Source: Metaphire vulgaris | Lineage: Eukaryota; Annelida; Clitellata; Crassiclitellata; Megascolecidae | Direction: 5' to 3' | Length of the DNA stretch: 64,000 nt | Assembly: GCA_018105865.1 (NCBI GenBank) | Contig: CM030859.1 | Span: 3,366,097-3,430,096 of the forward strand | Shown: positions 8,912 through 55,587 of the stretch, in pieces | Layout: each line of letters begins with the position of its first letter | Numbering within the stretch: position 1 is the first letter of the stretch | Program-made: the position numbers and the translations under genes | Notes under the pieces: generated by a model | What the model saw: only the letters and a program-made list of their open reading frames with translations | Told to the model about the DNA's origin: nothing | The model's database searches: none

Positions 8912-9258
8912 CAAAGAGTTCAGCAGTGCGAAACACGCGCGAAAAATTGTAATTTGGGACGTTAGTTGCATTTGTCTTCCCCTTTCACAGGAACCTCTGA
9001 GAAAATCATTTTGAAGACATATCTGTCGACAGATCTCAGTGAACTGATAGAATCAGAGAACGTAAGAGTGGTTCAAATTATTATTATTATTGGTGCTGTT
9101 ATTTTCACAAACACTCTCTGCAGCTAAGTTCGAATTTTCATCTTCCGTCGTCATTTTCAGCAATTGCATCGTTGGGGTCCAGTGGCCGTTGTACAGCACC
9201 TCACAACGAATATCGAAATGAGTCTGATTGAAGGTCATATTACAAATAGGTTCAGATT
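8912..9258 (-). pseudogene. Type I gene 1, second Ig-like exon with frameshifts
   Basis: Acceptor cttttttag|AA, donor TTTG|GTAAGT. The opening frame shares RCEV, W.PTMQLLKMT and ATNV.NY blocks with the intact exon at 33724-34068. The frame changes near an (AAT)5 run and again before ATNVPNY. The 347 nt length cannot keep phase 1 on both sides. The (AAT)n suggests slippage as one cause. Confidence 0.75.
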
Positions 9259-9426
9259 CTAAAAAAGTAAAATTCCAAAAGTGAATACTTGAATATTGTA
9301 TTTTCATTTTTTCAGCATATTGCGTTACAAGCAAGTCAGGTGCAAATACGGTTGCAATCAATTGTTGGAGTGCAGTACTGTAGTACAGCCATGCTTAGGC
9401 TAAAAAACGTGAGAAGTGAGAATCAG

Positions 9427-9638
9427 AAGTGCCGTTTTAAGACGTTTGGGGCCCTAGGCATTTTAAAAAAAGTTGCGATGGCCTTTTTGCTTATTCTGCT
9501 TTTGGAGGAGAAAATTAATAAAAATCAAACAAGATAAAGTGGTGATGACATTTTTCCTAATTATTTTTTCACCGGCCTCTCATCTATCGCGGGGCTCTAG
9601 GCACGTGCCTACCATGCCTATGCCTTTAAACGGCCCCA
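9427..9638. mobile_element. MITE with GCCGTTTTAAG-type ends
   Basis: Left GCCGTTTTAAGACGTTTGGGG, right TTTAAACGGCCCCA, with flanks agaatcag and agaatcgg (7/8). Consistent with an old hAT-type insertion in the intron upstream of the second Ig exon of gene 1. Confidence 0.6.
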
Positions 9639-9959
9639 AGAATCGGCTGATAATAACAACTGTGTATTTATGGCTTAACATGCTAGTAATAGCATTTGTT
9701 GGGCTGTCCATTAATTATGTCAACAATTTTAGGCAATTTTTAAACTCCCTTTTGTCAACAACTGTAAAACTGTCGGTGACCCCTAATGAAATTATGTCAA
9801 AAACATTGAACCACCTCCCTTACAAGCCAAAAGTATTTTATACGGCTGGCTTTTATGTTAAATGAGAATTATGGAAATTAATTTCTTGCATTTATTAAAT
9901 TTATTGTAAAAAATGAAATTGCTTACATCAATTTATCTTTACGCCCCTCCCCTATCAAC

Positions 9960-10603
9960 CAGGGGCTTCTATCCCTATTTAAGGCGGGCTCAGTGTGCGC
10001 CCGGAAAAAAAATGGGGGGGGGGAATATTTTGCTTTCAACACCGTTATATAAACTATTAATAAGCTAAATGATGCTACTTATCTTAACTGAACTGACACT
10101 GATATTGAATCAAAATAACACTGATCGTGACGTAATCAGTGGCGTCATTTTGGAGGAGGGGGGCCGTGGCCCCCAAAGAAAATGAACAAATTAATTTATA
10201 ATGTATTAATGCGCAAAATTGCAAAAAATTTCCAAAAAATATAAAAAATTGCTAATTTGCCAACATTGGCCCTAACGTTTGCCAAAATTTTCCAACGTTT
10301 TCCAAAATTTTGCAAAAAAATTTGCAAAAATATGCCTAAGATTTGCAAAAATTTGCAAAAAATTAGCCAAAAATTATCTTGCCACCTCCCCAAGAAAAGT
10401 GTGAAATGACGCTACTGGTCGTAATCAATGGTACATGTTAGCTATGCCTAATACAAAGGATAAAAAGCTGAAAATAATACAAAAGTCTACAAGGGAGCAA
10501 ATTAGCAGGGGTAATTTGTAATTTTTTTATTTGGGGGGGGGGGGAATTTGTAATTTTTTAGGGAGGGATTGAGCCCGGCTTCAAGGGGGGATAGAAGCCG
10601 CTG
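9960..10603. mobile_element. hAT-like MITE nested in the Harbinger-like MITE
   Basis: Left end CAGGGGCTTCTATCC, right end GGATAGAAGCCGCTG. TSD is ctatcaac (9952-9959) and ctgtcaac (10604-10611), 7/8. Its target lies inside the conserved TGTCAACA block of the host MITE. Confidence 0.85.
10137..10417. mobile_element. hAT-like MITE nested at the second level
   Basis: CAGTGGCGTCATTTTGG at the left, GAAATGACGCTACTG at the right. TSD is gacgtaat (10129-10136) and gtcgtaat (10418-10425), 7/8. The core holds degenerate TTGCAAAATTTNC repeats. Confidence 0.85.
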
Positions 10604-10759
10604 CTGTCAACAAGTGTCAAATCCTATCAAACTCCCTACCTTCTATTTTATTGATGTAATTAATGGACATCCCTGTAGTCTTTTGAAGACATAAGCTGTT
10701 GATCAAAACCAGAACATTAAGTCTAAAACAAATGTTCTAAGTGAAGTATTTGCTTCAGT

Positions 10760-11000
10760 TTCTTGATGGTAGAACAGATCAACTGGATAGGACACGTGCT
10801 AAGAGGAGAAACATTGCTTAGAACAGTAATGGAGGAAAGTATATCAGGAAGAAAGACAAAAGGAAGACCAATATGCTATTGGACTGGATGGTGAAAACCG
10901 ATGAACAGCGTCACAAAAAATATGCAGAAATCAAAGAAGAGACAAGACGCAGAGAGGAATGGAAACAATGGAGCCCTGAACTTGGACCAGGACAGAGAAC
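10760..11000 (+). mobile_element. LINE RT C-terminal fossil
   Basis: The plus frame from about 10765 reads QINWIGHVLRGE, TVMEES, GRKTKGRP, then after a frame change EETRRREEWKQW. This is the usual end of an RTE/endonuclease-type LINE RT (W.GHVLR...GRR.RGRP). It abuts the (GAT)n tract. Confidence 0.75.
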
Positions 11001-11147
11001 ATGATGATGATGTTGTTGATGTTGTTGATGATGATGGTGTTGATGATGGTGTTGATGTTGCCGATGATGGTGATGATGATGTTGATGATAATGATGTTGA
11101 TGTTGTTGTTGATGATGTTGTTGGATGATATTGTTGATGTTGTTTGG

Positions 11148-11188
<41 letters not shown>

Positions 11189-11229
11189 GTGATGATGGTG
11201 ATGGCGATGATGATGATAATAATAATGAT
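10999..11229. repeat. (GAT)n/(GTT)n tract next to the gene 1 V exon
   Basis: Trinucleotide tract beginning about 30 bp downstream (minus strand) of the V-exon donor of gene 1. The poly-Asp, poly-Ser or poly-His frames in it are not genes. Confidence 0.95.
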
Positions 11230-11256
11230 GAATCGGTGAAACATAGCATTCTTTAC

Positions 11257-11531
11257 CAAAAACGATCAACTGTGCGTTCAGCGAGTTTCCTTTCGCTGAG
11301 CATTGATAGATTCCAGCGTGTTCCATCTGTGTGCTGTTCAACAGAAGCGTCTGTTGGTCGAGAGAAAACTCAGGCCCAGCGTTTATCTTTTAACTGGTAA
11401 TACTTTTCCATTGCTAAGAACCGAGTTGTGGTGCCAAGCTATAACCGTGCCGTTAGATTCCAAATCACATGTCAGTGTCACCTGATCACCAACTTTAACA
11501 GCCATATTGTTCAGTCCGCCAAGAGATAAAG
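11257..11531 (-). pseudogene. Type I gene 1, V-set Ig exon with a 1-nt frameshift
   Basis: Acceptor tcttatgacag|CT, donor TTTG|GTAAAG. The first half reads GLNNMAVKVGDQVTLTC to W, the second half TLLLNSTQMEHAGIYQC, together the Cys-Trp-(DAGxYxC) V/I-set core. Frames join only if one base is added in the AAAA run near 11391, which would give KKIN as in the paralogue (RKIN). Confidence 0.85.
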
Positions 11532-12592
11532 CTGTCATAAGAACAGACGTAAAATTAAAATTAGGCAGAATTTTCATTTAAAGATTCCTATTTATTTTAC
11601 AGCCCTCCATGGATTTGCCTCGTTTACTTAGATCAAGATCAAAACTTTTATTGGCAATTTGCCATTGACAAGGTTTATTTCTCAACGACATCAGAAAAGA
11701 ACTTAACTATTATAGTTAACAGAGTAAATATCAGCATTATATTATAAACCAAAATTGTCTTAATCTGAACAGTCTTTACTGCACAATATGACACCAGAGT
11801 TGCTATAGTTATTGATAGAATGATAACAACACATTTGACCAGTGCCCATAAAACAATTATAGGGTTCAAAACAGGTGATGTTCCTAAGGAATAGGTCTAA
11901 GGAATAGGTGATGAGAGGGAATATGTGATGTTCCTAAAGGAATAGGTGATGTTCCTAAGGGAATAGGTGAATTTAATTCAGATATCGCACGACTGCGATG
12001 AAATGCGTCATAAAACGATCTTATGAATCTATAGAAACTTTCTCATAATAGGCCTATCGATAACGTAAAAGCGCATAGGCCTACAGTAACTTACTTTAGC
12101 CAACATGCCAACGTTTAACATTCATTTTATGATATTCGACATTAGTCAATCAATCAATCAATGATTTATTTCCAAGCAAAACCATTACATATTGTTTCAA
12201 GGTACTAAGTTACAGAGGGAAGCGCGTAAATTGTAATATTTCAAAGTTCATTGCAGAGACGTCATTTCACTGTTTTTCGGGGGAGGGGAGGCAAGACACT
12301 TTCGATCTGACAAGTTTGCAAAAAGTTGACGACCTTTTTTGCTTGTGTCAGTAATTTTTTATGATTAGTTACTTCAGATTACTCGACACCAAGCCTTCCT
12401 TTAGGGGCTGATGACATTTTTGCTTTTCAGTGTCTTTTACCTATTTAGCCAGCCAATTTACATGTCAAAACTAAATAACACAAACATTGGCGAAAAACTT
12501 TTTCTCCCTAAAAGTCAGGGGGCAACGGCCCCTCCTTCCTTTCGAAATGACGTTCCTGGTTCATTGCAAAGTGCAATATTGGAAATAATATG
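11532..12592. other. 5' flank of gene 1, no signal-peptide exon found
   Basis: I searched the minus strand for a short hydrophobic exon with a phase-1 donor and found none. A hydrophobic frame at 11675-11869 has no homologue in the paralogues. 11880-11980 carries a tandem ggaataggtgatgttcctaa repeat, three to four copies. 12250-12570 looks like another short repeat (gacgtcatttcactg and gaaatgacgttcctgg at its ends). Confidence 0.5.
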
Positions 12593-21843: not shown

Positions 21844-22721
21844 TCACAATGTCAAGTTAAAAATACGAATTTTACTCTCCACCAATTTCTCATCTGCGTT
21901 TTTGTTGTCGGCCACTAGCAGTCGGACTGAACTCTCTGATTCACACAGACAGATTCTTAGTGGACCACTTAAATTTTGCCTCATTTTTGTATTGGAGATA
22001 TTCTCTTTCCATTCCAGTCGATTACTGAATGAAATGATTTTGCTGCTGAATGGAGGGTCATCGTTTCCGGCGGCGGACAAATATATGTTTCCTTTGCTGT
22101 CGACTGCAAGTGATTTTGGCGTTGAAAACGATCGATCGGATATATAGGCTGGATCATTCTTGACCCTATTCGACATAGGCCTATCTCCGCTGCTATCGAA
22201 CATGATTATCTCATGGTATTTGGAAATTTTGTCTTCAAAACATGCCACAAAGTTTCCACTTTCTAACTTGATAGCATGGCATATCATCAAATCTGATACT
22301 TTAGGATGTGTTGTGCGTAAGAGGTGACCATTAAACGTATACTCATAGACTGCGCTTTTCTTTCCATCTGTAATTAGTAGGCGTTCTTTTGTAATCGATA
22401 TTCTTCCCATTTCTCCTTCACAACGCCATCTGTTGTGGAGCATTCCAGTCTTATCCAAGATGAAAATCTCTTCCTCTTCCACACCTTCCTCTTCCACACA
22501 GTTCTTCCAATCACATATGAATATGAGTTCCGTTTTTGGACATGCTGTCATGTCATTTGGATCAACTAATCCGTTCACTTTCCATTGTCTTTTGTAAATG
22601 GCGCTTTGGAGATCAAAAACCTCAACATTGGTCTTATTTTTCGTCACTATGAAAACCTCATTGTCCAGAATGGCCAGTCCGAAAATGGCATCGCTTCTGG
22701 TCTCTGTGAAAGTAGGAACCG
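21844..22721 (-). CDS. Gene A NHL-like beta-propeller exon (intact)
   Basis: A single 878 nt exon (acceptor gatgtctttag|CG) gives 291 residues to a TGA at 21846. Repeated blade-like units are visible: VFIVTKNKTNVEVFDL, DPNDMTACPKTELIFICDWKN, GRISITKERLLITDG, CHAIKLESGNFVACF, PKSLAVDSKGNIYLSAAG and SVRLLVADNKN. These match the NHL/SBBP-type propeller repeated in invertebrate proteins and at the C-terminus of TRIM-NHL proteins. Such propellers bind proteins or RNA. Placing it after a transmembrane exon makes it cytosolic if the gene model is right. It is longer and better conserved than the matching exon of gene B, which implies longer selection here. Confidence 0.82.
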
Positions 22722-23067
22722 CTAAAGACATCAAAAATACATTTTAAGATCGTTTAAGGCTGACTAAAGTTTGTTTTAATCATAGAAAAAAATGCCTAAG
22801 GCATGCTCACCATTCTGAAATCATTTTCTTAATACTGCTATTCAAAATATTAACAGAAATCCGCTTGAAATGACCGCTGTTGCTTATTATTCGCTTTATT
22901 AAAATATTGACGAACAAGATACATTGAAATGAATATATAAATGCTGTAACTGCCATTGAGATAAACCTATTGCTTTCTGTACTTTATTATTCGCTGCAAT
23001 TCAACTTTTTGCTAAAATATTTCAAACAAATGCACAAATTAGAAACTGATATTGTAAATCGTAGGTC

Positions 23068-23490
23068 GTGTTCACTTACAAGGTGCGTTGTCCAATAGTC
23101 CAATACCGTGTTCGAGCAAGGCGTCTTTTTCTGAAGAAAGAGATAAAGGCTTTAGAAATAGTTCAACACGCAGCAACAAAGCGGATTCAAGTGTGTCAAA
23201 AGACTAAACTACGAAGAAAGGCTAAAATGCCATGGATTAACGACTTTAATTGAGACATATAAAATACTAATAAACATAGTGGACGTCCAAATTTAAAGGT
23301 TTTTCGCCACAAAACAGTGTGACTGAACCCGAGGACATAAAATGAAACTGCTTAAGAAACGGGTTGGGAGACACAAGCAACATTTTTAGTGCTAGAGTGG
23401 TTGATAGGTGGAATTAATTGGATGAAAAGATAATAATGGTTACTAGTGTAAACGCTTTTAAAATAAACCTAAATACTATGGATGCTGTAT
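23068..23490 (+). mobile_element. LINE RT C-terminal fossil in unit A
   Basis: Plus frames read LKKEIKALEIVQHAATKRI, then in the next frame YEERLKCHGL.TL.ETYKI, then FSARVVDRWNELDEKI and NAFKINL, the end of a CR1-like RT. The first part is also in unit B (45161-45350), so it inserted before the duplication. It lies in the intron between linker and NHL exons, antisense to the gene. Confidence 0.82.
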
Positions 23491-23728
23491 TATCCCTGTA
23501 TAACTATTACACTGCAGATAAAATATTGTGCAGTTATACAGTAACTGAATGAGGTATTCATGCCAGTGCAACGTTTTCTATTTGTAGTTGCAAAGAAGAA
23601 TACAGAAACAAACCTGCTAGAGAACAAGAGGGCACAGAATGAGAGTATACAGCAAGACCATAATGGTTGAAACACAGCGATTATTACACATGGCAGAACC
23701 TGCTGAATCACTTTAAACTTTGCTGTTA

Positions 23729-24141
23729 GGGGCTGTCCATTAATTATGTCAACACATTTTGGGCAATTTTTGACCCTCTCCCCCTTGTCAACAACTGTCA
23801 ACTTTCAGTTAACCCCTCCCATAATTACGTCAAAAACTTTTGACCCCCCCAGATCAATGAAAGGTCCCAATAACAAGGTTAATATTTTTGCGATGATGAC
23901 CATTTTTCTCTTTTTTGCTCATCGAGTGTCAAAATGTGATGGCTATGACCATTTTTGTCATGCTTTTTTTCCATTATAATAAGTAGTATTCCATGAAATT
24001 TCCTAGTTTTTGATTATTTGTAAAAAAAATGAAATTGTTGACGTCAACTTCTCTTGACCCATCTCCCCCTGTCAAGAACTGTCAAACTTTTTCAAAACCC
24101 CTCTCCCCCCTAAATTGTTGACGTAATTAATGGACAGACCC
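23729..24141. mobile_element. Harbinger-like MITE with TTA target-site duplication
   Basis: GGGGCTGTCCATTAATTATG at the left, complement ending GGACAGACCC at the right, flanked by tta on both sides (23726-23728, 24142-24144). About 413 bp. Its right end lies 13 bp from the donor of the gene A linker exon. Confidence 0.9.
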
Positions 24142-24154
24142 TTATTATTACTAC

Positions 24155-24238
24155 CTGTACGTAGTGGGGCTGTCTCGGCAACATGGCCATTCTTTCCCTT
24201 TGATGAGCGGTTGTTTTTATCGTTGACCATTTTCTTGT
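24155..24238 (-). CDS. Gene A cytoplasmic linker exon
   Basis: Acceptor catccaaacag|AC, donor ACAG|GTAGTA, 84 nt, phase 1 in and out. Encodes a basic, polar linker (KKMVNDKNNRSSKGKNGHVA then ETAPLRTG). It fits exactly between the micro-exon and the NHL exon. The copy in gene B has lost both splice sites. Confidence 0.72.
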
Positions 24239-24632
24239 CTGTTTGGATGAGCATATATTTCATTTAATGGTTATTTGAGTAAATCGTCAAGTTGAAAATA
24301 AAATAAATTAACATAAATTAAATTCATATCAAAATCAGGCCATATGTTCTCGTGACAATTTCAAGTCATTTACAGTCGTTGCATTTTAAACCTACGTTTG
24401 ATAATTAGGCCTAATCTAGATAGGGTAAAACATGGATGGGCGATCATTCTGGGATCGAGTCGTGGTACCGGCGGCCAACGAAATTTAGTAGGCCTACAAG
24501 AAGATCAGAGTCGAACTCTACGCTCGTTCGAGTACGAAATTACCTTTCCCTTTACCTCTAAGCCTAGTCGTAATAACAGAACTGATAAGATCTGTATGCA
24601 GTGATTTGCAATTTTTGCAGAAAAACACAGAC

Positions 24633-24670
24633 CTGTTGTGGCAGGATTGTCTCCAGGCATTCGTGATTTT
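24633..24670 (-). CDS. Gene A 38-nt juxtamembrane micro-exon
   Basis: Acceptor ttgtttctttcag|AAAATC, donor ACAACAG|GTCTGT. It converts phase 2 (TM exon) to phase 1 (linker) and encodes RKSRMPGDNPATT. Same length and splice sites are kept in gene B at 45834-45871, despite replaced residues. Confidence 0.78.
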
Positions 24671-24814
24671 CTGAAAGAAACAAGGTGCTATGCAACATAC
24701 AGTCCATCGCTGTAGGTTGAAGCTAATTCATTCTACGTCAATGAAGGAAGCAATTTATTCTCAAGCGATTTTTAAATTGATATTCTACTGTCAATCTGAA
24801 TGCCACGGTTGATC

Positions 24815-24905
24815 ATTCGTCAGAGCGTCAGTCCTGTCGTCTCTAGGGAAGCGGTCGCCAGGGTTCGATTCTCGCTGCAGTCAAATGTTCACCGACGCGG
24901 AGAAG
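24815..24905 (+). repeat. tRNA-like SINE remnant (both units)
   Basis: Contains GGGTTCGATTCTCGC, a B-box-like block, with an A-box-like stretch about 50 bp upstream. The same sequence is at 46015-46095 in unit B. No full cloverleaf. Confidence 0.4.
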
Positions 24906-25227
24906 CATTTTGGGTGATGATTAACTATTGCAATAAGAGCTCAATATATTTTGAGCATTTGCAAGTAGGGGCCAACAATCTCATTGTCCCGTGGCAGTTG
25001 TCTCTTGTCGATTGCACTGCATTTCGGCCTAATTTAAATAGATTCTGCGATACAAGTTCAAATATAAATGCGACAGTGACATGATAATACCAATGCCATG
25101 TATGCTCACTAAAGAAAGAATAGGTACAGTTGAGCTTCGTTATAGCAGACTAGGTTAAAGCGTATGCTCTTTTCAACATACCCACGTGGTGCACTACCGT
25201 ATTGGATGGTATTTGATAAATCGTACT

Positions 25228-26042
25228 GTGACGAACCGGGCCTATGACTTTAACTCTATATCTCTCAGAATGACTGTGGCCCAGTTGGGTACAAGGGGGT
25301 TAACCTCACTATAAGACACGTGGCAATTCGACCTCGCTTTTTGGCATAGAGTTTACTCGCAAACTTGACAAGGGGACTGTAATGACTCTCTTCCTAGCTC
25401 TACTATCTAATCTCTTACTCTTTCAGCTATTAATCTCTGCTAGAAAGGTATCTAATACTCTACTCTCTATTTACCCTCTGCTCTGCGACGTACTCGGCGG
25501 GTGTACCTCTAGCCATTATCTCACTTGCTATTGAGTTTTGGACATTACTGTACATCGTACGTCGTCCTAGCTACCTTTCGTGCACCCGTGTACCCGTGTA
25601 CCGAGCATCTTAGATATCTCCGTGTATCCGTGCGCCGTTTACCTTAGCTATCTCCGTCTACCCGTACCTTTCTGATACCAGATACTACCAGTCCTCTTCC
25701 CATACATTTTATCGTTGGGGCAGTCCACCCCTTGGGTACCGCTAGTGCGGTGATTGATGCTCTTCACTAAGAAAGAGGGTACATGCATGCACCTACTAGC
25801 TAATCCAAGTAAGAACTCAGTTCACCCGTCCCGCTGCCTCTCATGGGCCTCTATTTAGAGGGTTTTAATGCTACCTTTTAGAAGGTGTACTACATGTAAA
25901 CCTCAGCTATCTATCGGCTTATAACTCAAAGACGCCTGGTGCCACCTATTGAATATCTTAGATTTAAGCTCTCTGGACTTTTTACTTATTGCTCAGGCAG
26001 TTATTATTATCACTAAAGGACATCGTCTATTATTATTATTGA

Positions 26043-26098
<56 letters not shown>

Positions 26099-26100
26099 TA
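25228..26100. repeat. Pyrimidine-rich ~0.9 kb interspersed repeat, copy 1
   Basis: Starts TGTGACGAACCGGGCC and contains CCACCCCTTGGG.ACCGCT, ATCGGCTTATAACTCAAAGACGCC and TATCACTAAAGGACAT. The same blocks are at 34420-35315 and 63391-64000. The body is rich in ctacctcag-type pyrimidine runs and ends in an (ATT)n tract (26026-26095). No ORF. Confidence 0.7.
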
Positions 26101-26230
26101 TTCATTTTATCAACTATCAAGTTAGCAATTAATTTTGCAGACCCGCTAAGTACGTTATAAGGTAGTTCTACTGCAGTAATAATAGACTTGGTTTAGATTG
26201 TCACAGCATCAGTTTAAATAAACGAAGTAC

Positions 26231-26384
26231 CTTTTGTTCCTCCTTATGTAAAACAAAAATATTGAAATTGTTGAAACAAGAGCTACGATGGCGATGACGA
26301 TCGCTGCAACAAAGGCACCGACTGGAACCGTCTTCTTCTGCTCTGGTTGCTCTGTTGTGGATGCTACGAATGGAGTTTTTTCTT
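26231..26384 (-). CDS. Gene A transmembrane exon
   Basis: Acceptor gtctatttag|AA, donor AAAAG|GTACTT. Encodes an EQPEQKKTVP stalk, a hydrophobic pass (VGAFVAAIVIAIVALVSTI then SIFLFY) and a basic IRRNKR stop-transfer. Identical length (154 nt) in gene B. Confidence 0.88.
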
Positions 26385-26499
26385 CTAAATAGACTTAAGT
26401 AACAATAATTTTGATAAATCAGATGCAGACAACCGTTTGATTTAATAGATAAAAGAATGTTGTTAAATAATCATTAATCAATTGCCGAAGAGAGAAATA

Positions 26500-26935
26500 A
26501 AATCCTGTTGTTTACTGAGTTTAATTTCGATCAGAGTTGAGTTTCGTGTGTTGAGAGCGGTTGCACCCTCTCTTTTTGGTGCCACTCCATCTTACCTATC
26601 AGAGCTAATCCATCCTTTTAGCTCAAACCCTGGTTGGCCAACTTGGCCATGTCTTCGGTCCACAACCCATGGCTTCATCAGTATGCCGCAAACACGAACC
26701 TCCTTGTTCCCGAAACGAGATTTTGAATCAGTTGGCCCTAACCTTTGGAATGCTCTTGACACCAGTATGCGTGGCTTAGCAACTCCTAATTCTATGGCTC
26801 TCTTTTGAAACGACTTAAAATTATCTCTTTGTCAATTTCCAGTTATTGCAGCGGGAGCGCTTCTGAGTGATTCTTCATAAGAGGCGCTATACAAATATTT
26901 TGTTACATTACATTACATATATTGAACCTAGTTTG
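26500..26935 (+). mobile_element. LINE RT C-terminal fossil in unit A only
   Basis: Plus frame: APSLFGATPSYLSELIHPF, later RDFESVGPNLWNALDTSMR, an L2/CR1 RT end, then a 3' tail with aggcgctatacaaatatttt. There is no counterpart in unit B, so it inserted after duplication into the intron between C2 and TM exons. Confidence 0.8.
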
Positions 26936-26949
26936 AAGCGGTAATAATA

Positions 26950-27020
26950 TAATATAATATAACAAGGTTTAAAGTGGTTCAGTAGGGACTGCCCTGTGTG
27001 AGAACCACTGTACGTCTACT
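26950..27020. repeat. ATAAT run plus aacaaggtttaaagtggttc short repeat
   Basis: The constant block aacaaggtttaaagtggttcagtagggactgccctgtgtgagaaccact follows an (ATAAT)n-like run. It is near-identical to 29733-29785, where the run is (TA)n. This is consistent with a short retroposon with a variable simple-repeat tail. Confidence 0.75.
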
Positions 27021-27424
27021 TACAATAACTATTGACACTTGAGAACACATCATTGAATTAACTTTGAACTAATTGAGATGATGTCCTCGAGGAGTGTTTA
27101 GAATCAAGATAATTTATTATCTCTACAACTGAAGTGTATCTCATATAATAGCGTAGTCATTGAATTTTTTTCTTATAGGACCTTGTCACCATGGTGCAGA
27201 CCTATGCATGCCTAAGAGAGAATCTCAACGGACCAATAGTGAAGCCTGTTTGCGCTGAGTTACCTTGCCGTCTCGGGTTCCAATCTGGAGTGGACATTCT
27301 GAGAAATACGCTTCGCTGTTAAAGTATTTTTAATAAGTAAGTAAGTAATGAAATAAGCAGATCGCTTCTAACGAGAACAATATTTCATATGCACATAATA
27401 CCAAAGTGATTGAGTTGTATTTAC

Positions 27425-27710
27425 CTGGCACAGAGTAAGACCACATATATTTGGATGATAAAGGACCTGGAAGGATATTTCACTTGGCAGATATAGGTTA
27501 GAGGCTGCAGCGCAATCACCTTTATATGAACTGTGGACGTGGTTTTGTCGTCGCTAAGAGTTGAATTCAGTCGTTTCCCATTACTGTCATTCCACTCCAT
27601 AATGGGATGAAGGTTTCCGTAGGATTGCATAGCACAGGACAGTTCCAAATCGTTACATGTCGGAGCACATGTGATTTTTGCGGCGCATGTTTTGTCTGAT
27701 GGAAATTTTT
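27425..27710 (-). pseudogene. Gene A C2-type Ig exon, 2-nt deletion
   Basis: Acceptor ttattag|AA, donor GCCAG|GTAAAT. It reads KTCAAKITCAPTC, LELSCAMQSYG, IMEW, TYICQVKYPSRS: the Cys-Trp-(YxC) Ig core plus an extra Cys pair. Gene B has tcgtct where A has tcct after PSR, so A leaves the frame 16 codons before the donor. Confidence 0.82.
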
Positions 27711-28306
27711 CTAATAATCGACAAAAACAATAAGTTCATAGCAAAAGTTCGTTTAATCGTTATGTTTTCAATAGTTATTTTCAGTCTCGTTTTGTGCTTT
27801 GCAAAAGATACATTTAATTATCCAAAAACCGTTTAGATTTGTTGGCGTTATCATAATCTAAATTGACAATGTATTGCAGATATGGGTTTCAAGAGGCTAC
27901 TTCAGGTGTTAAAATTTTCTCGTAGATTTGATTTATTTGACTGCAATGCCCAGAATTTACTTATTTAAGGATCTGAGTATTTCTGCTCAATAAAACCAAA
28001 CTTTCAGTTAACCAATACTTTCCAAATAGTTTAGGATTGCTCCAGAACCCGTAACTGCTAATTTCCCCCGTTGCCTTCGATGCGTTAACGATGTAATCTG
28101 TAATACATTTGAAGTTTTGCATTAACTATTTCCTTATGCTTAGCATTTGTTTAGAAAATCTTATTCCCTTCTGCCTTAGATTGTTGTCCATTCATTTTTT
28201 GTTTTGTTTTTGATGACTGCTGTTCTATTTATTTCTATTGGACTCTGTAATGTGCCCTTGCTCCTGACATTTTGGTAATACAGCGCAAACGAAATTATCC
28301 GTTTAA

Positions 28307-28392
<86 letters not shown>

Positions 28393-28470
28393 ATACTAAT
28401 AATAATAATAACTACTACTACCTAAACACAATGAGTTCTACTACTACTACTACTACTACTACTCTGTGTA
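28307..28470. repeat. (ACT)n tract directly 3' of the gene A V exon
   Basis: Two (ACT)n blocks (28307-28392 and 28437-28462) separated by a stray copy of the V-exon end (aacacaatgagttc). The tract starts about 20 bp beyond the V donor. Confidence 0.92.
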
Positions 28471-28488
28471 ATAATAATTGATGTTTAC

Positions 28489-28786
28489 CAAACACAATGA
28501 AACAGTCGTCTGTGTTGCCTGTTTTGATTTGACGTGAACAGTCCTGCGTCTTTATTTGAGACGTTCTCTATCTGTAGATTGCACGCATTGCCGTTCTCTG
28601 TAACACTGAATCTTCCCTTGTATCCGTTGTAGATGTAACCTCCTTGATAGAGGATTTCGTGACCATTGGCTCCAATTGGCAGATGATACCATTCACAGCG
28701 TCCAAGGCTGCTGGTGCAGTACAGCGTTGCATTGTCGCCAACTGCTGCTTCAGTGTCACGTGGAACGACGATGAACTCTGCCTCAA
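28489..28786 (-). pseudogene. Gene A V-set Ig exon, 11 nt shorter than in gene B
   Basis: Acceptor gcgtttttcag|TT, donor GTTTG|GTAAAC. Opens VEAEFIVVPRDTEAAVGDNA, then LYC, RCEW, GRFSVTE, LQIENVSNKDAGLFT. Bases lost right after FT remove the second core Cys (FTC in gene B) and shift the frame. Confidence 0.85.
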
Positions 28787-28828
28787 CTGAAAAACGCAGC
28801 AATAATATGCGTTGAACATGAAATATTA

Positions 28829-29220
28829 GGGTAAGTAGGTAAATAAGTAAGTAAAATCTCGTGGTTTTATATAGCGCTTGGAAAGCATCACAGCGGTAGC
28901 TGCTTACTCTTAGGCGCTTAGCCTTTTTAAAATAGCTATGGGAAAGGCACATGATCAGCCAGGCAATAGTCAATATCCGAAGGGCAGTGAGGCTAGGTTG
29001 TCACAGTTATGGAGGAAATGATTTCAGAAAAAGAAAGGATTTAAGCTTTGACGTCACGTGAAGACTTGAGGATATAATGCAGGAATTATAGGAAATGAGG
29101 ATTCAGATTTTATTGTTTGAAAGTGTCCAAGTCTGCGGAGGGAAGCTGGGATCGAGTTCCAAAGTTCAGGTGCAGCGTATGAAAAGACACGGTTGCAGAT
29201 TTCCAGGGAGATTACGATAA
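28829..29220 (-). mobile_element. LINE 3' end, unit A only
   Basis: Minus frame reads NRVFSYAAPELWNSIPASLR then a 3' untranslated tail with gcgcctaagagtaagcagct and gcgctatataaaacc. Unit B reads through without it (gtgatatcggtaataattaagg). The same 3' tail is at about 19685-19790. Confidence 0.78.
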
Positions 29221-29678
29221 TAATAATTAAGACTGGATGTTTGCCCGTCAAGTATGACACAGAAAGCTATACTGTTTTCTTAAAGGCGGAGGTTACCCAT
29301 ACTCGATTTCCAGCTTTGGGGCGTGGGCGCTGATCTCCGGCTTCTGTAGCATACAGTGAAGCAGGTGCTTACACCATTAATCTAGAATAGGTTGCCAGCC
29401 AAACGTCTAGACCTACGCTTTACCTCACAGCTAAACGCTACTCCTCATTTTCTTTACAACCCCATCTAGCGAGTAAGACTGAGTCGACTTTAAAGGCTCC
29501 AACGGGTCTAGAGCCCGTCGTCAGCGTGCCTGCCGCCAAGATTTTATTCAGCCTATAATGCTTTCCGATATAGGTCTAATACTCATTTTCGACATGTTCT
29601 AGCATTTTGTCCAGGAACTTGTCATAAAAAGCAACATAGCTTGATGAGCAGTTTGATGTTTGCCGGGTTTCTCATTCG

Positions 29679-29679
<1 letters not shown>

Positions 29680-29734
<55 letters not shown>

Positions 29735-29785
29735 CAAGGTTTAAAGTGGTTCAGTAGGGACTGCCCTGGGTGAGAACCACTGTTG
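29680..29785. repeat. (TA)n plus aacaaggtttaaagtggttc short repeat
   Basis: A (TA)n run (29680-29733) fused to the same constant block seen at 26962. Absent from unit B, where ttctcattcgccataatgcaac is continuous. Confidence 0.78.
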
Positions 29786-30814
29786 TTCCCGTCTAATGCC
29801 ACATACAGTTGACCATGGGTAAATAATGGTTAACTTAAACACTGTATAATTCAACATGTTTCCGTATTTACCCTGCAGTGTTTCGATGGTCACTGCAAAT
29901 GCAGGGATCATTGGAAATGGGCGGAGTTTCAAAATGAACTTCAAATTCCCGTCATCGAAAATCGGTTATTTGAATTGTAGCCAATTCGCCTGGCTTGTTT
30001 TCTGATAGGATTATTATGTATGCAAACTTTTTGTGACAATCTCTCACAATCAGTCTCGTTCGGTTGATCTGCCCTTTCTTCAGATTCTTGTTACGAAGAA
30101 GCAACGCAATGGTTACTATTTGAGAGATGTGAGATGGATGGGAAGAGGAACATAGCGGAGAAGGGGATAAAGAATGTGGGGGAGAGGAAAAGAGAGGAAA
30201 GGCAGATAAGAGGAGGGAGAGGAGAAGGGAGATGAAAGGTGAGGAAGATATACAATATATATATATATATGCTTTATATACACATTGCATATATATGCTT
30301 TATAGATATAAATATATATGAAAGGTGAGGAAGGTATATATATATATTATATTTATATATGATGTCAGAATTGCGTTTTGATACAGGCATATTAGAAACC
30401 ATATGCCATCATTGAATGACAGTGACTAAGATGGTCATCGTATAGTCTTTCTCGCATTCAATTAACACCTTCGCTGTGGTTGCGACACAATGCATTGGAT
30501 CAGGTTCGAACGAACTGCGCTTCGATTGCATAACGCAAACTCTTTCCATAAACTGATTCAGAGCGTTCATCTAACTAGACATATTACCCGGACTTAGTCA
30601 AATTCAATATTGGTGTCTCTAGGAAAACCTTCATCGAGACGTTTAACTGCTACACCCGCAGCATAAGCAAGCTTTGCGCAGTTGATAATTGGTTTCGATT
30701 GCTTTCACTTTCTCATTAAACTGAGGTACCTGGTCATGAACCTAAGAGTTACACTGTACTTCCTTGATCTTAGAATTAATACAGGTCTTTGTCTTAGAAC
30801 GCGTGAATACTTAC

Positions 30815-30875
30815 CGCTAGAAATAAAGATGAGGGTCACAATAATATTCAAATATTTCTTGTTAAAACTCAACAT
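30815..30875 (-). CDS. Gene A signal-peptide exon
   Basis: ATG at 30875, 20 codons plus 1 nt, donor AGCG|GTAAGT. MLSFNKKYLN then IIVTLIFISS is a typical short signal peptide (basic n-region, hydrophobic core, small residues). Phase 1 joins the V exon to give ISS-VEAEF. Confidence 0.82.
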
Positions 30876-31791: not shown

Positions 31792-39260
<7,469 letters not shown>

Positions 39261-51075: not shown

Positions 51076-53490
51076 TATACTGGTCAACAAGGTTTTTATT
51101 TCCTGTGCAATTTCTGGTGTTCCAGGTAGATTTTGTCATGCTGATTACAGGAATAATTTTGAAATTTCCTATCACGTAAGTTTTTTGAGAAAAAGCTGAT
51201 TTTAAATTTTAAAATTATAAGAATTTTAAAATCGTGGTTTTCGAGAGTTATCTGAGTTATGGGTATTCAGGTTAGGCAAGAATCTTATGTGACCGCCACA
51301 ACAGATGTAATATGCACTGCTGGCTCACTTAACTACATGGATTTTGAAAATTAGTATAATTAGGCATGTCCAGACATGCCCAGACGTGCCCAAACCTGTC
51401 TTCAAGACTACATGCCTAGCATGTATTGTTGCTATGGTTACGCAGTCCCTATATAAATACCAAGCAGCACTAGGAAGCAGCTGCAGTCTTTCTATTTGAT
51501 GAGATATAACTGTTTAGTTAAAGGCTGTGAATTGAATATATTAACTAATTTAATTAAAGTTTCTGAAATGTCGCGTCGATGTCGCAATAGCAGTGACACG
51601 TTCTGCTACATCTGTGGAGAGTTTACGTTGAAATCACAGAAGCGGAGTATGACAGCAATCATAAAGAAAGGATATGAGTTATACTTTGGATGCAAAATTG
51701 GCGACCAGGACAAAGTATGGGCACCTCATATATGTTGTTCATCTTGTGCTACCAGTCTGCGAGCTTGGCTTGCAGGTAAGCGTCCATCCATGCCATTCGC
51801 CATACCAATGATATGGAGGGAGCAGAATAATCATGTAACGGATTGCTATTTCTGCATGACGAATGTTACAGGATTTTCTTCAAAGAATAGGAAGTCTATT
51901 GAGTATCCCAATCTTGCCTTGGCAATGAAACCAGTTCCACACGACGAGAGTCTTCCTGTTCCAAACCCCGAGTTTTGGACACTAGAGGATGAGGACGAGC
52001 ATGCAGAGACAGATGAAATGCTGCAGATAGTTGATGATTCAGCTACGGAAGACCCAGAGTTTGAGCCATCGACATCCAGCAATCCTCATTTGATTTCTCA
52101 GGCAGAGCTCAATAATCTGGTCAGAGACTTAGATTTGTAAAAAAATCAAGCAGAATTGCTTGAATCTAGGTTGCAAGGATGGAATCTGCCCTCTCCAGGT
52201 ACAAAAATTTCAGTATTTCGTAAACGGCATGAAGACTTGATCGATTCTTCAAAAAAATCGACAGTCTTACTTTTTGCATTGACAATTGATGGATTGCTTT
52301 ATGCTTTCGGCTGTAAGCACAATCCATCCGAATGGCGACTTTTTGTTGACTCTTCGCTGTTAAGTTTAAAGGCTGTTTTGCTGCACAATGGCAATTCATG
52401 CCCTTCAGTACCCATTGGACATGCTGCTTACATGAAGGAAACATGAGAACATGCAGCTGCTATTGAAACACATAGAATACTCGAGATACAACTGGAATAT
52501 ATGTGGAGATCTGAAAGTTGTTGCAATTCTACTCGGTCTGCAGCTAGGCTACACCAAGTACTGCTGCTTTCTTTGCGAGTGGGACAGCCGAGCTAGAGAT
52601 TCACATTACCTGAGAAAGGTCTGGCCACCTCGCAGGGACTTGGTTCCAGGACAGAAGAACGTTAAACATTATCCTCTCGTGGATCCAAAGAACATTTATC
52701 TCCCACCTTTGCACATCAAACTTGCGTTAATGAAAAACTTTGTCAAAGCAATGAACAAAGAAAGTGAAGCCTTTACATACTTACGACAGAGGTTTCCACG
52801 CACCAGTGATGCTAAAATAAAAGAAGGCGTTTTTGTTGGCCCACAGATTCGAGAGATGCTCAAGGACAGTCACTTTGAGGGCCTTCTGCAGGGTGCCGAG
52901 CATGTTGCCTGGACAGCCTTCAGGGATGTTGTTGCTAACTTTCTGGGCAACTACAAGGCGCCAAACTATGTTGAACAAGTTGGAAATCTGCTGCAAGCTT
53001 ACAAGGCAATGAAATGCAACATGTCACTGAAGATACACTTCCTTCATTCTCACTTGGACTTCTTCCCGGACAATTTCGGCGCCGTCAGTGATGAACATGG
53101 TGAAAGATTTCACAAAGACATTGCCAGCATCGGAGACTACTGTTGGTCACTGATACGTGAAGCACAGGACAGTGACTACAAACGAAAATCTACAGCAAAA
53201 CATTTCTAATTTTCTCATGTCTTGTCATTATTGCCTAGATCCTTCTGTAGGATTATGTTGCAGAAGACGTTACAATACTAAATGCTAAATTGTCGATTTC
53301 TTAAAACCCTTACGTGATACAGAAATTCTAATTACATATTTGTGTTCAGCAAGTCAAAATCTATTAGTTTCACCAAAATTTGTAGAGGAAACAAAAACTT
53401 GCATAAAATTTGTTGACCAGTGAATCAGCATGACAAAATCTACCTGGAGCACCAGAAATTGCACAGGAAACAAAAACCTTGTTGACCAGT
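51076..53490 (+). mobile_element. 2.4 kb DNA transposon with ~70 bp TIRs and a large ORF
   Basis: Left end (tat)ACTGGTCAACAAGGTTTTTAT and right end ...CCTTGTTGACCAGT are inverted repeats extending about 70 bp (to catgctgatt and aatcagcatg). gtaaccaat flanks both sides (51067-51075, 53491-53499), a 9 bp TSD. Unit A has the empty site (ttgtagccaattcgcc near 29980). It lies in intron 1 of gene B. The superfamily is not assigned: the TSD length fits hAT, Zisupton-like or Merlin groups, but I do not recognise the protein as any of their transposases. Confidence 0.88.
51568..53209 (+). pseudogene. Transposon-encoded Cys-rich protein, one in-frame stop and one frameshift
   Basis: From MSRRCRNSSDTFCYICGEFT the frame has Cys pairs CYIC, CCSSC and CYFC, an acidic middle, then NLVRDLDL and a TAA (52138-52140). 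The same frame resumes with KNQAELLESRLQGWNLP to HAAYMKET (52443), and a shift near 52445 leads into MQLLLKHIEYSRYNWNICGD. The second part has GDLKVVAILLGLQLGYTKYC, CFLCEWDSR, PLHIKLALMKNFVKAM, SLKIHFLHSHLDFFPDN and SDEHGERFH. Similar proteins recur as multicopy uncharacterised proteins in several invertebrate genomes (from memory). With TIRs and a TSD around it, a transposase role is the best inference. Acidic residues in ICGD, HSHLD and DEHGE could form a DDE-type centre, untested. Few lesions mean recent activity. Confidence 0.72.
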
Positions 53491-54617: not shown

Positions 54618-55587
54618 TACAGGGTGAAAAAGTGAAAACGGCACCCCTTTCTGATATTAAATATCTCGGCTGCGTGTATAGCGATTTCAATGAAATTTAT
54701 AGGCCATATACCTGGGAATGTTTTTGATGCAATTGCCAAATTTCATGCTGATATCTTTAGTGTTTGCTGAAATATGGCCAAAAACTAAAGAGACCCACAT
54801 TTTGAAATTGACATTGGAATATAACGTCATAATAAAATGTATCGTTTTAAAGTCTAAAATAGCGTCGTTGTCATCGCGCCAGACAAGGTCAATGGTTACT
54901 TACGGCCAACAGATAAACACAGCAGCATTATGATTGGCTGCATGACTGTCATGATTTGCTTGGAGAAGATTTTATATTCCAGCAAGACGGAGCACCTGCG
55001 CACTCTGCTTTCAGGACCCAGGATTTTCTGAAGCAAGTGTCCAGATTTCATCAAGAAATATGACTGGCCACCCAACTCCCCAGATATCAATCCACTTGAC
55101 TTCCACGTCTGGGGAATCATGCTCGACAGATATCAAAAGTATCAGCCACAGAACATCACGGAGTTGAAGACTGTGCTGAAGAATATCTGAGAGAGTTTGC
55201 CTGAGAACCAGATCAAGAAGTCGATAGTGTCAGTGAGGAAGCGCTTGTCGGCATGTGTGAAGGCTGAGGAGGGCATTTTGAGCACCTGCTCCCGTAGCAA
55301 ATCATCTGAAACCCTCTTTAAAACGGCCCTTTTCAGGGCCAACAAATAAAAAAAAATGTTTTAGCACTTTATTATGACGTTATATTGCAATGTCAATTTC
55401 AAAATGTGGGTCTCTTTAGTTTCTTGGCCATATGTCAGCAAATACTAAAGATATACAGCATGAAATTTGGTAATTACATCAGAAACATCCCAGGTATATG
55501 GCCTATAAATTTCACTGAAATCGCTATACACGCAGCCGAGATATTAAATATCATAAATGGGTGCCCTTTTCACTTTAACACCCTGTA
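54618..55587 (+). mobile_element. Mariner/Tc1-like transposon with ~215 bp TIRs and a transposase remnant
   Basis: TACAGGGTGAAAAAGTG at the left and CACTTTAACACCCTGTA at the right, bounded by TA. The inverted arms are about 215 bp (54618-54835, 55370-55587). Between them the plus frames read GEDFIFQQDGAPAHSAFRTQ, then DWPPNSPDINPLDFHVWGIM, ITELKTVLK, the C-terminal catalytic part of a Tc1/mariner transposase, with frame changes. The N-terminal DNA-binding domain is missing. Confidence 0.9.

Follow-up and report, generated by a model that had tools for sequence, protein, structure and literature searches.

Two damaged gene copies in Metaphire vulgaris point to a family of immunoglobulin receptors with a predicted cytoplasmic NHL propeller

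Two damaged members of a multigene family can be recognized on the minus strand of a 64,000-nucleotide stretch of the Metaphire vulgaris genome (C28:3366097-3430096, hereafter the window), copy A at 30875-21844 and copy B at 53911-44024. We interpret this family, with a probability of roughly 0.8, as encoding type I receptors in which a signal peptide, a V-set immunoglobulin (Ig) domain, a C2-like Ig domain, a transmembrane (TM) segment and a linker precede a cytoplasmic NHL beta-propeller. The interpretation builds on the order of the domains, on splice phases that fit together, on linkage along one strand and on the correlated divergence of ectodomain and propeller, all of which can be read in the genomic sequence, and from these the splicing, topology, surface expression and mechanism of the receptors are predicted. 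Immune receptors of the immunoglobulin superfamily (IgSF) usually signal through short tyrosine motifs or through borrowed kinase, TIR or death modules. As the first-pass annotation of the window had supposed, a receptor with an Ig ectodomain and an intracellular NHL domain seems not to have been described: none was found in the open-access literature at the level of titles and abstract openings, which is not proof of absence. A protein database likewise gave no match for the composite receptor (among the 7999 top word-sharing candidates) or for the NHL exon (572 candidates), in a set that seems poor in animal proteins and is thus not evidence of uniqueness.

An intact member of the family is found outside the window, at locus L011 on C20. 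Its exons (signal peptide 73 nt, V 312 nt, C2 300 nt, TM 139 nt, micro-exon 11 nt, linker 84 nt and then NHL) join into one intact seven-exon open reading frame with 0 internal stops, and the resulting 591-residue protein exceeds the Pfam cut-offs both for V-set (27.7, cut-off 26) and for NHL (28.3, cut-off 20). At a second locus, L013, the exons from V to the linker are equal in length to those of L011, and a serine replaces one of the C2 cysteines. The micro-exon is 11 nt long in the C20 model and 38 nt in the window (both 2 mod 3) and the linker exon is 84 nt in both, with C20 and window propellers only 37-39% identical (39% for L011). The 38-nt exon is indeed equally long in copies A and B, as had been pointed out earlier (45871-45834 in copy B, with 12 substitutions and 0 indels). 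The argument built on this is weak on its own, because the two copies are recent duplicates, and it becomes stronger because the diverged C20 loci keep a 2-mod-3 micro-exon and an 84-nt exon of exactly the same length. At the more diverged loci on C6, C41 and C22, the TM exon ends in phase 1, and a direct join to the NHL exon is possible. Open joined frames run from V to the NHL stop in L027 and L028, from C2 in L015 and L016 (the V exon of L016 has no donor ahead of its stop), and from TM in L022. The joined chain of L028 exceeds the Pfam cut-offs for I-set and NHL (NHL 26.7 bits, cut-off 20), and that of L027 exceeds the cut-off for other Ig models, its V-set score of 21.9 being below cut-off. 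The best-scoring acceptors are in phase 1 for 7/7 V and 5/6 C2 exons (12/13), as are the best donors of 6/6 C2 exons.

The association of V and NHL exons is a genome-wide one. When the whole genome (728,303,522 bases) was searched for both exons, the NHL exon gave 72 matches, most of them one open frame some 300 codons long; these reduce to 70 loci after the fragments of copy B and of one other locus are merged. Two V queries gave at least 131 distinct V exons, the counts being lower bounds since 150/230 and 150/176 candidates were scored. All ten V-NHL pairs within 5 kb lie on the same strand with V upstream, and so do 17 of the 21 pairs within 10 kb (17 NHL loci and 16 distinct V exons, one V being common to two loci) and 21 of the 26 within 15 kb (19 loci). 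For the 10-kb set, the binomial probability against a one-in-four expectation is 1.2e-7, a value that assumes independent pairs, which clustered genes are not. In a strand-shuffle control, using one V query and a 15-kb limit, 18/71 NHL loci were paired, against a mean of 10.0 and a maximum of 16 in 2000 shuffles. Additionally, hidden Markov models (HMMs) of V and C2, built from the sequences of these same loci, matched upstream on the same strand in 9/19 propellers (A, B, L011, L013, L015, L016, L022, L027 and L028), L022 and L027 being two further V-NHL loci recognized in this way; the other 10/19 had no upstream match within the flanking stretch examined. First detection, by single-sequence phmmer, gave V in 7/7 loci outside the window and C2 in 4/7, and the canonical cysteine pair is invariant in eight aligned V domains of the family.

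The Ig and NHL parts have also diverged together. For the Mantel comparison, the nine V-bearing loci were reduced to eight by merging A and B into a single window locus (V and C2 from B, NHL from A). Over these, the correlation with NHL distances is r=0.842 for V (reached by 5/40320 permutations) and r=0.836 for C2 (1/40320). When near-duplicates are dropped, six loci remain, with r=0.660 (31/720) and r=0.527 (12/720), respectively. Such co-divergence is as expected of one gene, and two linked genes under tandem duplication could also give it. Taken with the same-strand linkage and the intact L011, it bears out the earlier contention that the link between the TM segment and the propeller is more than chance.

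In copy A, the exons for the signal peptide, the V-set and C2-like Ig domains and TM, the 38-nt and 84-nt exons and the NHL exon follow one another on the minus strand with AG/GT borders, and a 51-nt exon (here called x) lies between the 84-nt exon and NHL. The first exon (30815..30875, MLSFNKKYLNIIVTLIFISS) encodes the signal peptide, leaves in phase 1 and is 87% identical to 53911-53851 of copy B. The V-set exon (28489..28786) is damaged, with a net loss of 11 nt relative to B that removes the second canonical cysteine and shifts the frame, so that, as it stands in the window, it is not a V-set domain with both canonical cysteines. The C2-like exon (27425..27710), still recognized by the family C2 HMM (E 5.9e-23), is 2 nt shorter than in B. 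The TM exon (26231..26384) enters in phase 1, leaves in phase 2 and encodes a hydrophobic stretch followed by YIRRNKRKSR; the 38-nt micro-exon (24633..24670) returns phase 2 to phase 1; the 84-nt linker exon (24155..24238) is phase 1-1, and an exon of equal length stands at this place in the diverged C20 loci. Exon x (23080..23130), also phase 1-1, came to light in a blastn search of the window with the exons of A, and is 93% identical over 43 nt to its counterpart in B (45223-45173). Finally, the NHL exon (21844..22721) enters in phase 1 and is open up to its stop. From TM to the stop, copy A is thus open and in phase, giving 400 residues with x and 383 without it; the chain is open either way because x enters and leaves in phase 1.

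Upstream of the TM exon the frame of copy A does not hold. A straight read stops after 119 residues, and the best donors of the V exon (28489, score 3.4) and of the C2 exon (27425, score 8.8) both leave in phase 2 instead of the required phase 1. The donors were scored with a hand-made matrix, considering each GT from nt 100 of V and from nt 150 of C2 onward. On this scale the phase-1 donors of V are 28496 (-0.5), 28607 (-2.9), 28640 (2.0) and 28664 (1.7), the last three of which would trim the end of the domain, and the sole phase-1 donor of C2 is 27432 (-2.8). The first-pass annotation had described seven exons of copy A joined in exact phase into an Ig-TM-NHL receptor. Its exons are all there, in the order, with the borders and with the TM-to-stop phase that it gave, but it overlooked exon x, and the phase of V and C2 is lost through the 11-nt and 2-nt deletions. 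The receptor architecture is well supported by other loci, L011 among them, and not by copy A, in which the frame of the ectodomain is disrupted.

Copy B complements copy A. A blastn search of the window with the exons of A placed its signal peptide at 53911-53851, V at 49966-49658, C2 at 48629-48342, TM at 46339-46186 and NHL at 44830-44024, in addition to the micro-exon and x. Seven exons (signal peptide, V, C2, TM, 38-nt, x and NHL) follow each other exactly in phase for 431 residues, after which the NHL frame is broken by an insertion of 5 nt, by stop codons and by two deletions, one of about 60 nt and the other of 1 nt; the 84-nt exon has lost both borders. The V domain of B scores 38.6 bits against Pfam V-set (cut-off 26). 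In the sequence as assembled, the half lost in one copy of the window is the half kept in the other. The two copies are about 76-88% identical in DNA over the aligned blocks, introns included. With the 84-nt exon and the damaged V and C2 ends set aside, 521 codons remain, over which their ratio of nonsynonymous to synonymous divergence (dN/dS) is 0.69. By part, it is 0.67 in signal peptide, V and C2, 0.42 in the initial 108 NHL codons and 0.63 in the later 150. Within the first intron of B, and antisense to it, there are two long open frames (51457-53209 on the plus strand; 227 and 257 residues) with no Pfam match, perhaps transposon-borne.

The fold of the propeller was characterized on an alignment of 16 of the 18 available rows (L024 and L021 omitted; the broken NHL of B not counted), of which 13/16 match PF01436 at E<=0.01. 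The 16-member profile matches Pizza designs, Thin, TRIM71, TRIM2, TRIM3, PknD and Brat (among the best 60 of 70 matches). An AlphaFold2 model from the alignment (predicted local distance difference test 86.9, predicted template modelling score 0.87) is nearly all beta, and in a Foldseek search of the PDB its top folds are the NHL domains of TRIM2, TRIM3 and Brat, followed by Mei-P26, with template modelling scores of about 0.64-0.69 and identities of 11-18%. A propeller fold of the TRIM2/TRIM3/Brat NHL class is thus predicted with confidence. The genes do not look like those of complete TRIM proteins: the exons recognized upstream of NHL encode signal peptide, V, C2, TM and linkers, which L011 carries in a single open frame, and no RING or B-box was matched in Pfam at E<=0.01 in the joined proteins of L011, L027 and L028. 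At L024, a cysteine/histidine pattern ahead of NHL looked B-box-like by eye and matched no Pfam family.

Given this fold, the propeller could also be read as a module that binds RNA inside the cell, as in Brat and TRIM71, which would tie mRNA regulation to surface recognition. Brat and Mei-P26 are among its best folds and TRIM71 among its profile matches, but the fold search ranks the NHL domains of TRIM2 and TRIM3 first, and these act mainly through proteins. Moreover, the net charge of the NHL domain is -5 in the window copy and runs from -16 to +7 across the 16 members, so that an RNA-binding face common to the family is not favoured. The RNA-binding half of the earlier proposal of a protein- or RNA-binding platform thus gains no particular support, and we consider this reading unlikely.

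In the receptor reading, the propeller is predicted to lie inside the cell, from a hydrophobic N-terminus and from basic residues after the TM segment, as seen in the sequence and in a hydropathy scan. The linker between TM and NHL is short, basic and fast-evolving. By eye, and leaving the propeller itself aside, A, B and L013 have no tyrosine between TM and propeller other than the TM-proximal one, and the linker of L011 has a single tyrosine, in ESYISQ, which is not an immunoreceptor tyrosine-based inhibitory motif (ITIM). With linkers that have no tyrosine motif, the usual motif signalling from this region is unlikely. In the mechanism that we propose, the Ig tip would bind a variable ligand (a self marker or a microbe) and the receptor would thereby be clustered, while the cytoplasmic propeller would act as a docking platform that takes over from tyrosine motifs in recruiting partner proteins. 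On this reading, the receptors may serve in immunity or allorecognition. The wider proposal stands at even odds in our judgement: that a large immune or allorecognition family signals through a built-in TRIM-type NHL propeller, and not through tyrosine motifs, kinases, TIR or death domains, that ectodomain and propeller have co-diverged, and that close ectodomain relatives devoid of the propeller are possible decoy or paired forms.

Several observations weigh against the receptor reading. The splice joins, and hence the receptor chains, are predicted from genomic DNA; the joins were picked by us from splice scores, and linker exons may be missing, wrong or misassigned. In particular, the TM donor of L013 is GC, the C2 acceptor used in L028 ranks third, and the best-scoring NHL acceptor is in phase 1 at 4/7 loci, the phase-1 site being second or third at the other 3/7. 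The NHL exon of the window, taken alone, scores 19.6-19.8 bits with Pfam NHL, just below the cut-off of 20, and Pfam finds no NHL in the joined chain of L027 at E<=0.01. In the linker exons, which are short and fast-evolving, dN/dS reaches 1.44 between A and B (TM, micro-exon and x) and 2.2 in the 84-nt exon of L011 and L013. Both copies in the window are broken. Furthermore, no V was detected within 15 kb of 49/70 NHL loci, so the propeller also occurs in other settings. Among the 13 V exons closest to that of B (B included), four have an NHL match within 15 kb downstream (A, B and two on C20) and nine have none; of these nine, six are 80-85% identical (C70 and C28:3.57-3.70 Mb) and three 56-61% (C23 and C50). 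Among these nine are three with V exons 88-91% identical by blastn to that of copy A (L030, L031 and L032, on C28:3.58-3.71 Mb and C70; 88% for the first two); L032 keeps V, C2 and TM with no NHL within its 9 kb, and L030 and L031 have the V exon with no other exon of A within 9 kb. These three may be paired or decoy forms, or decayed copies.

Part of this evidence would fit a family in which the architecture is real, the window copies are pseudogenes and the whole is a decaying relic. The frame breaks in V and C2 of A, the several breaks in the NHL exon of B and the isolated V exons of L030 and L031 speak for decay, and for A and B themselves a pseudogene reading is likely; provided that the breaks do not stem from misassembly, each copy is probably a pseudogene or close to one. 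For the family as a whole, we regard the relic as quite improbable, since L011 is fully open, L013, L027 and L028 are open over the joined exons, and dN/dS between L011 and L013 is 0.57 (at a dN of 0.09).

In another reading, the window holds separate neighbours, an Ig receptor gene that ends in a short tail of its own and, downstream of it, an independent gene for NHL. This would agree with the stop met within a few codons when the TM exons of A and B are read past their donor (after NKRYF.YLN), with the in-frame ATG of the C20 NHL exon (MEDDV...) and with the NHL loci and V exons found without their counterpart. It is very unlikely in view of the order and strand repeated in 17 or more loci over several contigs, the phase-1 entry of the window NHL exon matching the upstream phase, the 84-nt exon and 2-mod-3 micro-exon kept between diverged loci, the NHL exons of A and B, which open at an acceptor and lack a start codon there, and the correlated divergence of V, C2 and NHL (which tandem duplication of two linked genes could also produce).

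Compared with known systems, the predicted receptors share the C-terminal NHL propeller of the TRIM-NHL proteins (TRIM2, TRIM3, TRIM71, Brat, Mei-P26 and Thin), to which profile and Foldseek matches point, whereas no RING, B-box or coiled coil is seen ahead of NHL here, the predicted protein having instead a signal peptide, a pair of Ig domains and a TM segment. Invertebrate IgSF receptors of immune type or in allorecognition, such as Hydractinia Alr, have tails with tyrosine motifs. The family resembles them in being a clustered multigene one with V-set and second Ig domains, a single predicted TM segment and decayed copies, and differs in a cytoplasmic part that would be a folded propeller, behind linkers that in A, B, L011 and L013 are free of ITIMs. 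Teneurins, weakly matched by the profile, are also membrane receptors with an NHL propeller; theirs is extracellular, whereas the NHL of the family follows the TM segment and is predicted to be cytoplasmic, and the other domains differ. The sensor domain of PknD (sequence match 1rwi) is an NHL propeller joined to a TM protein as well, but PknD is a bacterial kinase, has no Ig domain and has a topology opposite to that predicted for the Ig-NHL receptor.

The window holds other elements. Between A and B lies another IgSF gene (32860-39260, plus strand), with a V domain found by HMM and, by eye, two more Ig-like exons, a TM segment and a tail that contains several tyrosines (GVYGTYEDI, SPVYVNSL), with no Pfam match for these parts. 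Next to the Ig-NHL gene L011, on the other strand, is a V and C pair of the same type (L010, 6390-9472), and the pairing of the two gene types therefore recurs. Fragments of a further IgSF gene are found at 9053-11577 on the minus strand (V pieces at 10934-11577 and a weak C-like piece at 9056-9394), and 16 kb downstream of them, on the same strand and outside the window, is the NHL locus L025 (C28:3360220). At 54640-55580 lies what looks by eye like a relic of a Tc1/mariner-type element with long inverted ends. Just past its transposase-like 3' end there is a histone-type 3' stem-loop (55320-55362, plus strand; Rfam RF00032, 34.8 bits, gathering score 34), and the element might borrow histone mRNA 3' processing. 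A scan of the window for tRNAs found none.

If the receptor reading is true, a folded propeller of the TRIM class inside the cell would be a new wiring of surface recognition, in which recognition would possibly be linked straight to the ubiquitin-ligase, vesicle or mRNA machinery. The family also offers a concrete set of genes for tests of self/non-self recognition in Metaphire vulgaris.

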